Shown one piece after another: positions 35,337 through 40,602 of a DNA stretch of 42,459 nucleotides. The translations under genes and the position numbers were made by a program. Source of the stretch: Methanomicrobia archaeon JdFR-19 (GTDB lineage Archaea; Halobacteriota; Methanosarcinia; DSM-18856; Methermicoccaceae); the NCBI GenBank assembly GCA_002010075.1, contig MTMG01000022.1, positions 1-42,459 on the forward strand. The letters are read 5' to 3'. Within the stretch, counting starts at the first letter, position 1. Every line of letters starts with the position of its first letter. The notes below the pieces were generated by a model. It made no database searches and was not told the origin of the DNA. It was given only the letters and a program-made list of their open reading frames with translations.

Positions 35337-35828
35337 TCACTCGAGAGTTGTCTGGATATCCTCGAGTAATGCCTGAAGGTCTTCCTCATGCTCGACTTCG
35401 TCAGTGAGAATTGCCAACGCCATATTGTACGTTATGGGGTCTTTTTCCTTCGTCAAGTTCATCAGATTCTCATATACATCGATAGCACACTGCTCTCCTT
35501 TTATGTTCTGTTCAAGTATCTTCTTGATGCCAAAATCCTCTGGAGCTTCGTATCCACAGTTCGTCATGGCATACCATTCCTCTGGCTTCAGGATGGGTGT
35601 GCCTCCCAACTGGAGTATTCTGTTCACAAGCATATCCGCATGTCTCAGCTCATCGTTTGCATGCTCCAAGAGTTCAGTGACGACCGCTTCCTTCATAATT
35701 CCCTTCACAACCTTTGCTCCAATCCAGTACTGGTAGTAAGCGAGCCACTCATCAGCCAGAGCCTTGTTAAGTAGTTCAATTAGTTCATCCACATTCAAAT
35801 CCACAATTTCTCTACCTTTCGTTCCCAT
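35337..35828 (-). CDS. Ferritin-like/Dps-type diiron protein
   Basis: 163 residues forming a four-helix ferritin-like domain. Glu/His ligand motifs are ADEWLAYYQYW, LLEHANDELRHAD, KGEQCAIDVYENL and DEVEHEEDL. It matches the archaeal DPS-like/bacterioferritin group and probably stores iron or removes peroxide. I chose the ATG at 35828 (MGTKGREIV), which is preceded by GGAG; an in-frame GTG at 35849 is possible. It follows the Bat-type regulator gene by 27 bp on the same strand, so the two may share a transcript. Confidence 0.87.
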   Translation of the reverse strand: MGTKGREIVDLNVDELIELLNKALADEWLAYYQYWIGAKVVKGIMKEAVVTELLEHANDELRHADMLVNRILQLGGTPILKPEEWYAMTNCGYEAPEDFGIKKILEQNIKGEQCAIDVYENLMNLTKEKDPITYNMALAILTDEVEHEEDLQALLEDIQTTLE

Positions 35829-35855
35829 AACCTCAACTCCAACTTTCACCTATAT

Positions 35856-36464: not shown

Positions 36465-36515
36465 GACTACTATGTTGGACAATGAGGATAAAAATAAATC
36501 GAACATATTCGGGTG

Positions 36516-36542: not shown

Positions 36543-38399
36543 ATGAATATGGAACCAAGTTATCATGAAAGTATAAATGAGATGTACAAAAAGGTGAGTG
36601 AAGACGGTACGACGAACATCGTTGATAGATTCAACGCACAAGAGAAGACAAGATGTCCCTTCTGTGTGAAAGGCTTGAGCTGTCGACTGTGCTCGATGGG
36701 ACCTTGTAGGATATCTAACAAAAATCCTTATGGGGCTTGTGGTATAGATGCAGCAGGGATGGTGATGAGGAATTTTGTCCATCTCAACATGTTTGGCACA
36801 GAGGCATATACGTATCATGCTGTTGAGGCTGTGAAGACGTTGAAAGCAACAGCAGAAGGCAAAACACCCTTCAATATAGACGAGGAAAAGCTCAGGTGGT
36901 TTGCTTCACAGCTCGGAATCGAAGGAGATGATATCAAAGAACTGGCTATGAAAGTTGCAGATTTTGTTTTGTCCGACTTGAATTCGGTAGAGGAGAGTAA
37001 GCTTGTTGAGATTTTCGCCCCAGAACCGAGGAAAAAACTATGGAGAGAACTCGGAATATTCCCACATGGTGTCTTCCAAGAACTTCTGAGTATGGGAACA
37101 TCAAGCATGACAAACGTCGATTCAAACTATGTGTCGCTTGCGAAGAAGAGCATGAGAATGAGCATATCCACATGTATGGGTGCCCAGATTGCCCTCGAAA
37201 TGATTCAGGACATTCTATTCGGAACGCCAATGCCACACAAGACATATGCTGATATGGGCATCCTTGACCCAGAGTACGTGAATGTGGCTGTGGACGGACA
37301 TGAGCCTTTTGTCGGGGCAGCTCTGATAAAGCTTGCCGAGAACGAAGAGACTCAAAGGCTGGCAAAAGAGGCTGGGGCAAAGGGACTCAGAATCATCGGC
37401 TTCATAGAAACTGGACAAGAACTCTTACAGAGATTCGATTCCCCTGTGTTTGTGGGCATCGTTGGAAATTGGATCGTTCAGGAGTTTGCACTTGCAACCG
37501 GATGTGTGGATGTGTTTGCTGCTGATATGAATTGTGTCCTTCCATCACTCCCAGAATATCAGAAGTATGGCGTAAAAATAGTGCCAGTGAGTGAAGTTGT
37601 CCGTTTGAGAGGAATAGATGAAGGGCTGGACTATGAACCAGAGAAGGTTGAAGAGATAGCAAGGAAGCTCGTTGAAATGGGAATAGAGAATTTCAAAAAG
37701 AGAAGCGGAAAAGGAATCAAGAGAAGTGAAAAGAAGGAGATAGTCGTAGGGTTCTCACCAGAAGCCATAATGAAAGCATTGAATGGAAATCTGAACATTT
37801 TGCTGGATGCGATAAAGAATGGAGACATCAAAGGAGTTGTTGCACTTGTAAGCTGTACTACACTGAAGAATGGACCACAAGATGCGAACACTGTGACGAT
37901 TGCAAAGGAACTCATAAAGAGAGACATCCTCGTTCTCTCAATGGGATGTGGAAATGCAGGAGTTCAAGTTGCAGGACTCACATCGATGGATGCAATTGAG
38001 ATGGCTGGTGAGAGACTTGCAAATGTTTGCAGAGCATTGGGTATTCCACCTGTCTTAAGCTTCGGTACATGCACGGACACAGGCAGGTGTGCGTATCTTG
38101 TAAGGATAATCGCAGATGCTCTCGGCGTTGATATACCGCAGTTGCCAGTTGCGGTAACCGCACCAGAGTACATGGAGCAAAAAGCAACGATAGATGCAGT
38201 CTTTGCTGTAGCATATGGTCTCACCACCCATGTATCACCAGTTCCGAACATAACTGGTAGTGAGGACGTTGTGAAACTTTTGACGAACGATGTGGAAGGA
38301 CTCACTGGTGGGAGAGTCGTGGTTGAGGAGGATCCAGTGGAAGCTGTAAACGTGCTCGAGAAGGTGATTGAGGAAAAGAGGGAAGCTTTAGGGATTTGA
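36543..38399 (+). CDS. cooS: CooS-family protein with a hybrid-cluster-like active site
   Basis: A 618-residue protein over the whole length of anaerobic Ni-CODH (CooS). Canonical C-cluster ligands are kept at H253 (DGHEP), C331, C438, C469 and C510, and the catalytic Lys at K547. The cysteine equivalent to Cys295 of Carboxydothermus CODH-II is absent: GICCTG is here GFIETG, with Glu289. The segment around K547 reads MEQKAT, like the EQKAV of hybrid cluster protein, which also uses His, Glu and Cys at these places. The D-cluster pair is altered too (C38 kept, Ser46 for Cys47, extra C41). CO oxidation is therefore doubtful; a CooS-V-like hydroxylamine reductase is plausible. No cooF or cooC gene is adjacent. 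A divergent Bat-type regulator lies upstream. Confidence 0.88.
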   Translation: MNMEPSYHESINEMYKKVSEDGTTNIVDRFNAQEKTRCPFCVKGLSCRLCSMGPCRISNKNPYGACGIDAAGMVMRNFVHLNMFGTEAYTYHAVEAVKTLKATAEGKTPFNIDEEKLRWFASQLGIEGDDIKELAMKVADFVLSDLNSVEESKLVEIFAPEPRKKLWRELGIFPHGVFQELLSMGTSSMTNVDSNYVSLAKKSMRMSISTCMGAQIALEMIQDILFGTPMPHKTYADMGILDPEYVNVAVDGHEPFVGAALIKLAENEETQRLAKEAGAKGLRIIGFIETGQELLQRFDSPVFVGIVGNWIVQEFALATGCVDVFAADMNCVLPSLPEYQKYGVKIVPVSEVVRLRGIDEGLDYEPEKVEEIARKLVEMGIENFKKRSGKGIKRSEKKEIVVGFSPEAIMKALNGNLNILLDAIKNGDIKGVVALVSCTTLKNGPQDANTVTIAKELIKRDILVLSMGCGNAGVQVAGLTSMDAIEMAGERLANVCRALGIPPVLSFGTCTDTGRCAYLVRIIADALGVDIPQLPVAVTAPEYMEQKATIDAVFAVAYGLTTHVSPVPNITGSEDVVKLLTNDVEGLTGGRVVVEEDPVEAVNVLEKVIEEKREALGI

Positions 38400-39555: not shown

Positions 39556-40602
39556 TCACACAACAAACCAGCCTCTTGTTCTCTTACATATTTCAACAAG
39601 AAACAACATTATCGGCACTTCAGTCAGGACACCAACCACTGTGGCAAGGGCAGCACCGGAGTTGATTCCGAAAAGGGTTGTGGATACAGCTATGGCAACC
39701 TCGAAGTGGTTGCTCCCAGCTATTATGGCTGTTGGTGCAGCATCTTCATAACCCAGTTTTATGAGACGAGCAATGAAGTATGTGATTATGAAGACTGCAA
39801 TTATATTCACAAATATTGGAATTGTTATCATTCCGATGACGAACGGTAATTCTACTATCTTCTCCCCCTGATACATGAACAGTACTATGAGCGTGATTAA
39901 CAGAGCTACAATGGACATCTTCCCAAGCTTTGGGACCAGTACCTCTTCAAACCATACCACTCCCTTTTTCTCTATCGCTCTCTTTCGTGTGAACCATCCG
40001 AAAATGAGCGGTGTGCATATGTATATCACAACTGCAAGTGCTATTGTCTTCCACGGAATGATTATTCCAGATATCCCCAGAAGGAGGGTGGCAAGTGGAG
40101 CATACAGGGCAACCATTGTCAGAGAGTTAAGGGCAGTCATCACAAGTGTGTGTGCCATGTTCCCTCTTGCAAGATAGCTCCACACAAGCACCATCGCAGT
40201 GCATGGTGCTACACCGAGTAGTATCAGACCAGCCCGATACTGCTCAGGATTGGCGAGAGACTCATGAGGGAGGAATGGATTGAAAATTGCACCAATAAAT
40301 AACCATGCAAAGAAAGCCATCGTGAAAGGCTTTATTGCCCAATTCATGAAGAGTGTTGTTGATATTGGTTTTGGTGATTTAACGGATTTCTTTACATCTT
40401 CAAAACTTATCTGAACCATTATGGGATATATCATGGCGAAAAGTAGAATCGCTATTGGGATGGAGATGTGGGCAACTTCCATTTCCGAAAGAAAGACTGA
40501 AATCTCTGGGAATATCCTCCCCAATATTGTTCCCACAACTATGCAGAGGACAACCCATAACGTGAGATACTTCTCCCAGATACCAAGTTCTCTCTTTTCC
40601 AT
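39556..40602 (-). CDS. acr3: Arsenite efflux permease, Acr3 family
   Basis: 348 residues with about ten membrane segments. The functional Cys of Acr3 is present as GVAPCTAMVLVWS (C134), together with FNPFLP and GSNHFEVAIAVS. It exports arsenite by antiport. No arsR, arsC or arsM gene is adjacent in the window. A short inverted repeat just before the start may be an ArsR-type operator. It converges with the radical SAM gene across 13 bp. Confidence 0.95.
   Translation of the reverse strand: MEKRELGIWEKYLTLWVVLCIVVGTILGRIFPEISVFLSEMEVAHISIPIAILLFAMIYPIMVQISFEDVKKSVKSPKPISTTLFMNWAIKPFTMAFFAWLFIGAIFNPFLPHESLANPEQYRAGLILLGVAPCTAMVLVWSYLARGNMAHTLVMTALNSLTMVALYAPLATLLLGISGIIIPWKTIALAVVIYICTPLIFGWFTRKRAIEKKGVVWFEEVLVPKLGKMSIVALLITLIVLFMYQGEKIVELPFVIGMITIPIFVNIIAVFIITYFIARLIKLGYEDAAPTAIIAGSNHFEVAIAVSTTLFGINSGAALATVVGVLTEVPIMLFLVEICKRTRGWFVV

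Follow-up and report, generated by a model that had tools for sequence, protein, structure and literature searches.

The cooS-V locus

The stretch of DNA analyzed here (the window) comprises 42,459 bp of contig MTMG01000022.1 from the Methanomicrobia archaeon JdFR-19, whose genome assembly measures 1.29 Mb and is about 90% complete. It carries a gene of the CO dehydrogenase (CODH) superfamily, preceded by a divergently oriented regulator gene:

35337–35849, minus strand: Dps-like ferritin gene adjoining the regulator gene; common only to the 96%-identical relative at locus L034
35856–36464, minus strand: divergent HTH_10-family regulator, 202 amino acids, with four Cys that are invariant among full-length relatives at this position
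36500–36513, plus strand: CGAACATATTCGGG, a conserved 14-bp upstream element and putative operator, with 29 nt between its end and the ATG
36543–38399, plus strand: CooS-V-type (Ni-CODH clade D, group D-1) predicted hybrid-cluster protein, 618 amino acids

The regulator gene starts 78 bp upstream of the cooS-V gene, and at the cut-off of the search 11 distinct loci have a member of the HTH_10 family as the immediate upstream neighbor of the D-1 gene, divergent in seven of them and co-directional in four. A relaxed form of CGAACATATTCGGG is present at 22 of the 33 loci in the clade of the cooS-V protein of the window, compared with two of 103 loci elsewhere (background 0.012 per region), and several of the 11 clade loci that lack the relaxed form show a weaker version by eye. 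The element (CGAACATATTCGGG / CGAANATNTTMGGG) has a single match in the 1.29 Mb host genome, the one at the cooS-V gene, which suggests that it is a dedicated control site. A genome-wide regulon of the CGAANATNTTMGGG element was also considered, and this single occurrence gives no list of co-regulated genes.

Downstream of cooS-V lie radical SAM, ACR3, dph5 and surE genes, which look unrelated to it, and no CooF, CooC or ACS gene is found among its annotated neighbors. A conserved operon in the window was rejected, as the Dps-like and downstream genes are common only to L034, apart from isolated weak matches. The ACR3-family arsenite efflux transporter gene (39556–40602, minus strand) is among the genes kept in L034, and the Peptococcaceae locus L076 likewise has an ACR3-like gene close to cooS-V.

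Cluster ligands and motifs

The positions that define the type of metal cluster are the following (all on the plus strand):

36654–36665: C38-x2-C41, type III [2Fe-2S] D-cluster motif, predicted to bridge the dimer (PMC6344411; PMC9311411)
36681–36740: C47-x2-C50-x4-C55-x10-C66, [4Fe-4S] B-cluster motif
37299–37301: His253 codon, cluster ligand, invariant
37407–37409: Glu289 codon, at the position of Cys295 in CODH-II and Glu295 in CooS-V, invariant in the group
37533–37535: Cys331 codon, cluster ligand
37854–37856: Cys438 codon, cluster ligand
37947–37949: Cys469 codon, cluster ligand
38070–38072: Cys510 codon, counterpart of the persulfide Cys521 of CooS-V
38175–38183: Glu545-Gln546-Lys547 codons (EQK), with Glu545 corresponding to Glu556 of CooS-V and Glu494 of hybrid cluster protein (HCP)

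An earlier note on this DNA had read H253, C331, C438, C469 and C510 as retained ligands, Glu289 as the replacement of Cys295, and an EQK triplet at K547, and all three readings hold. The five ligands are present and invariant among group members, and, with no gap in the alignment, E289 matches both Glu295 of CooS-V and the second Cys of the canonical CCTG motif, which is C295 in CODH-II. A substitute for Cys295 was sought between H253 and C331, where the only Cys is the unconserved C321. The E545-Q546-K547 triplet aligns with the EQK of CooS-V, and EQK is present in all 153 Glu-type alignment rows (which represent about 113 distinct loci with enough flanking DNA), whereas the Cys-type rows have SEK, SQK, TEK, AEK or EEQ at the same position; the pairing of Glu289 with EQK is thus far beyond chance. 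Tyr89 occupies the position of the acid-base His93, and every member has Tyr there. The cysteines of the D-cluster, which had been described as rearranged, are indeed C38 and C41 with Ser46, but this is no peculiarity of the protein; the CxxC arrangement is the type III [2Fe-2S] D-cluster usual throughout the group, and it is also that of the Desulfovibrio vulgaris CODH.

The resemblance to the HCP ligands that had been proposed needs one refinement. Functional equivalents of the HCP ligands are all there, but pairwise alignment with an HCP places the active-site Glu of that protein (THGEM) on E293, one helical turn from E289. E289 is thus the functional counterpart of HCP Glu268, though not clearly a residue of the same column. 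This offset fits convergence of the CooS-V-type and HCP hybrid clusters, and the CooS-V cluster is held to have arisen independently of that of HCP (PMC9311411).

Family assignment, structure model and phylogeny

The kinship with CooS-V is borne out by sequence search, predicted structure and phylogeny alike. In a phmmer search of the PDB, CooS-V (7b7q) is the top match over its full length (E = 2.5e-207), with true CODHs at 1e-123 and below. The AlphaFold model of the protein, built from 33 homologs, has a mean pLDDT of 92.6, and with it Foldseek ranks CooS-V first and second (TM 0.98, 52% identity), ahead of the D. vulgaris CODH (TM 0.96, 35% identity). The suspicion that the gene is misannotated as a CODH proved justified, in that NCBIfam model TIGR01702 (anaerobic CODH) takes in this CooS-V relative under that name with 871 bits against a cutoff of 478. 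A genuine HCP is ruled out by its TIGR01703 score, 44.8 bits against a cutoff of 360.8.

The marks by which group D-1 of clade D was defined are Glu in place of Cys295, an additional Glu at the second residue ahead of the Lys, a D-cluster of type III, and Tyr where the acid-base His would be (Inoue 2019; PMC6344411). The protein has all four marks (E289, E545-Q-K547, C38/C41 and Y89) and also retains the remaining C-cluster ligands (His and four Cys) that characterize the group; it is a member of D-1 and not a new type of protein. All 78 Glu-type proteins of a 99-protein tree (IQ-TREE, LG+C20) fall into one clade with 100/100 support, which includes both this protein and CooS-V, and the former lies in a subclade dominated by Archaeoglobi. 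It is 81% identical to a protein from an Archaeoglobales MAG and 96% identical to one from a Methanosarcinales MAG. The host class also holds families f2 and f4, and since their D-1 genes are only about 51–60% identical to that of the window, these comparisons make lateral transfer of the cooS-V gene likely.

Several observations on the genomes and on the clade may be recorded here. HCP was not found in the host genome (about 90% complete), nor was mcrA, though the class includes Methanosarcinaceae-like families; the only other prismane-family gene of the host is an open frame on contig 4 that, at 787 codons, has the size of CdhA. The protein at L042:8001-9842 (the same protein as at L013) lies inside the Glu clade, yet its D-cluster residues are C38/G41/C46, which breaks the reported Glu295-Cys41 correlation and suggests a return to a D-cluster of the [4Fe-4S] type. 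Two Glu-type cooS-V copies (L036 and L038) are present in the genome of the Archaeoglobi MAG S5B9_HD70 (G239).

Chemistry of the characterized relative

CooS-V of Carboxydothermus hydrogenoformans (PDB 7b7q and 7b9a; Jeoung 2022) is free of Ni, has a [4Fe-3S-nO] hybrid cluster and shows no CO chemistry (PMC9311411). The earlier note had invoked its hydroxylamine-reducing activity; the relationship to a Ni-free hybrid-cluster protein stands, but that activity is very slow (kcat 0.13 per s and kcat/KM 20 per M per s, below a true CODH) and NO reduction was not detected (PMC9311411); hydroxylamine is therefore best not regarded as the physiological substrate. The potentials of the CooS-V clusters are about 300 mV more negative than those of HCP, which its authors read as a sign of a physiological function different from that of HCP, and its access channel is open in the reduced state only, from which they infer a reductase (PMC9311411).

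That the protein of the window, despite its altered ligand, still works as a Ni,Fe-CODH is hardly credible. Its scaffold and its TIGR01702 score are those of a CODH, but the changes of Cys295 to Glu and of the acid-base His to Tyr89 are found in all members, the C295A/E variants of CODH-II lose both Ni and CO oxidation, CooS-V as the closest characterized member has neither (PMC9311411), and the annotated neighbors are without the CooF, CooC and ACS genes of a CODH context. For the cooS gene AF1849 of Archaeoglobus fulgidus, no differential expression with CO was reported (PMC4543118), and an eLife survey placed the A. fulgidus CooS in clade D.

Gene neighborhoods of D-1 genes

A 2026 survey of CODH neighborhoods reported clade D to be without a clear pattern (PMC13056359). 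Patterns do appear once the Glu-type loci are split by subclade. Nine redox or regulatory partner families recur, and 64 of the 113 distinct Glu-type loci have one or more of them, as against none of 18 canonical Cys295 CODH loci, a comparison that is partly circular because the nine families were chosen for their recurrence near Glu-type genes (the comparison with HCP below is not); the other 49 of the 113 have none of them. These loci are related by descent and so are not independent, many come from MAGs, and the controls are modest in size. An operon of rubrerythrin, flavodiiron protein, FTR beta (ferredoxin-thioredoxin reductase beta) and cooS genes is found at nine ANME-2/Methanosarcinaceae loci (L063, L065, L066, L070, L071, L074, L081, L084 and L190). 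In bacteria, an Rrf2 (IscR/NsrR-like) regulator gene and/or a 2[4Fe-4S] ferredoxin gene lies directly upstream of cooS; the full order Rrf2, 2[4Fe-4S] ferredoxin, cooS-V occurs at five Armatimonadota/WS1 loci (L077, L086, L090, L094 and L097) and parallels the published hcp-frdX operons. Crp/Fnr regulators accompany five bacterial Glu-type loci, divergent regulators with an ArsR-type HTH and a V4R domain (MsvR-like) accompany nine Thermoplasmata and related loci, and a small cupin gene is present at 18 Glu-type loci. Among the papers searched, none connects D-1 genes with V4R, cupin, rubrerythrin/flavodiiron or MsvR.

Beyond the Glu-type loci, a CooS with EEQ and Tyr (the clade C pattern) at L160 (G122:C19) also has a divergent V4R regulator alongside, so the V4R link may predate the split of clades C and D.

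These neighborhoods bear on two other views of the protein. According to one of them it would act mainly in redox sensing or regulation, its hybrid cluster changing form with the redox state and signaling to partners, and would not be a turnover enzyme. Such roles were proposed for clade D by the 2026 survey (PMC13056359), D-1 genes often adjoin regulator genes, and CooS-V has very low rates and a redox-gated channel (PMC9311411). However, the adjoining regulators possess DNA-binding and sensor domains of their own, several subclades group cooS-V with electron donors and detoxifying enzymes, and opening of the channel in the reduced state only was taken by the CooS-V authors as a reductase trait (PMC9311411), all of which makes a sensor improbable. 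The other view, that of a hybrid-cluster reductase acting on a different, low-potential substrate outside stress, is also unlikely, though a little less so; it agrees with midpoint potentials that lie about 300 mV below the HCP values and with the other function inferred from them (PMC9311411), but does not sit well with partners that D-1 genes have in common with HCP and with the flavodiiron, rubrerythrin and MsvR stress modules.

Shared context with HCP and replacement at one locus

The reading preferred here, a reductase that serves in stress defense as HCP does, is favored by the surroundings of HCP genes themselves. At least one of five D-1 partner families (cupin, ferredoxin, FTR beta, V4R and flavodoxin-type) occurs within 5 kb on either side of the HCP gene at 11 of 20 loci, compared with none of 40 regions drawn at random from the phylum's genomes (p = 5e-7). 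In another set of 30 HCP loci, taken with short flanks, cupin occurs at 16, FTR beta at nine and V4R at three. Published bacterial hcp operons include the ferredoxin-like frdX, and their control lies with HcpR (Crp/Fnr) or NsrR (PMC1274295), the same regulator classes as those beside D-1 genes.

A closer correspondence is seen in family f12, where three of four genomes have a flavodoxin gene followed by an oppositely oriented V4R regulator gene and a divergent HCP gene. The fourth (G029) has the same arrangement with a CooS gene in the place of HCP, its product having Asp at position 295, EQK and Tyr, and HCP was not found in this genome. Across the four loci the V4R regulators are 68–71% and the flavodoxins 51–60% identical. 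The binding site of MsvR, a redox regulator with a V4R domain that represses the F420H2 oxidase gene fpaA, is TTCGTAN4TACGAA (PMC3729527). This box, with at most one mismatch, is present in the promoter of the Asp-CooS gene and in all three f12 HCP promoters, and eight V4R-linked D-1 promoters contain either a near-match to the MsvR box or the related palindrome TACGAANNTTCGTA. The MsvR box is absent from the window, and a V4R regulator of the MsvR-like type is absent from the host genome. The Asp295 protein is sister to the Glu-type clade in the 99-protein tree (support 98/87, on a long branch) and is possibly an intermediate toward the Glu-type hybrid cluster. The replacement was thus seen once, for the Asp295 sister and not for the protein of the window, and no general mutual exclusion of D-1 and HCP was seen across the phylum, as by hand count about 16 of the 64 genomes that have a Glu-type gene also have HCP.

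The gene for the Asp295 homolog lies at L194:3998-5887 on the minus strand (the same gene as in L114, L134 and L298) and its product has a type I-like D-cluster pattern (C, G, C); no further Asp295 homolog was found in the other three genomes of the class of G029 that were searched.

On balance it is somewhat more likely than not that the D-1 "CODHs", together with their Asp295 sister, evolved independently as a second set of stress enzymes with a hybrid cluster and substitute for HCP, with the same redox regulons (MsvR-like V4R, Rrf2, Crp/Fnr and HTH_10) and the same electron-donor and detoxification partners, hcp having been physically replaced at its locus, under the same operator, in one archaeal family.

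Proposed function

The protein of the window is probably an HCP-like hybrid-cluster reductase of redox or nitrosative stress defense that does not oxidize CO and is under a local redox-responsive regulator. Beside its observed fold, family, ligand set and conserved local context, its quaternary structure and cluster chemistry are expected to follow the CooS-V structure: the protein would form a homodimer with a CODH scaffold, in which a [2Fe-2S] D-cluster bridges the subunits, and would have a [4Fe-4S] B-cluster and, in the active site, a Ni-free iron-sulfur-oxo hybrid cluster that changes form with the redox state, held by H253, E289, C331, C438, C469, C510 and E545. Electrons from a low-potential donor would pass through clusters D and B to the hybrid cluster, which in its reduced state would reduce a small reactive oxidant (NO, hydroxylamine, peroxide or the like). 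Gene context points to the physiological role, in which the gene would be switched on under redox or nitrosative stress. Comparison of context among the relatives suggests that the D-1 group as a whole works like HCP in this kind of defense.

The group is widespread in archaea and bacteria and annotated as CO dehydrogenase, and genome surveys are misled when its genes are counted as CO metabolism. D-1 itself has been known since 2019; what is new is the evidence that links it to the partners, regulators and locus of HCP. The shared neighbors, the replacement at the HCP locus and the MsvR-type operators make the question of the role of CooS-V-type proteins testable.

Comparison with known systems

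The canonical CooS-type Ni-CODHs (clades E/F, CODH-II) have in common with the protein of the window their fold (TM 0.95), the B-cluster, five of six C-cluster ligands and Lys563, whereas the latter is without Cys295, the acid-base His and the CODH gene context, and EQK replaces S-E/Q-K. CooS-V is a full-length homolog with the same Glu295/Glu556 ligand set, [2Fe-2S] D-cluster CxxC and fold (TM 0.98); at 52% identity the window protein differs in belonging to an archaeal subclade, dominated by Archaeoglobi, that has an HTH_10 regulator and an upstream element of its own. From group D-1 (PMC6344411) it does not differ, being one of its members. The MsvR system (PMC3729527) has its likeness in the V4R-HTH regulators and TTCGTAN4TACGAA-type boxes that precede related D-1 genes, the gene of the Asp295 relative and HCP genes, whereas the window has an HTH_10 regulator and the CGAANATNTTMGGG element and no MsvR parts. 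HCP (TIGR01703) has a functionally equivalent ligand set of His, Glu, four Cys and Glu and an EQKA motif; the scaffold of the window protein is of the CODH type (45 bits against a cutoff of 361), but neighbors of HCP are common to several D-1 subclades, and the Asp295 sister occupies the same locus behind the same operator.
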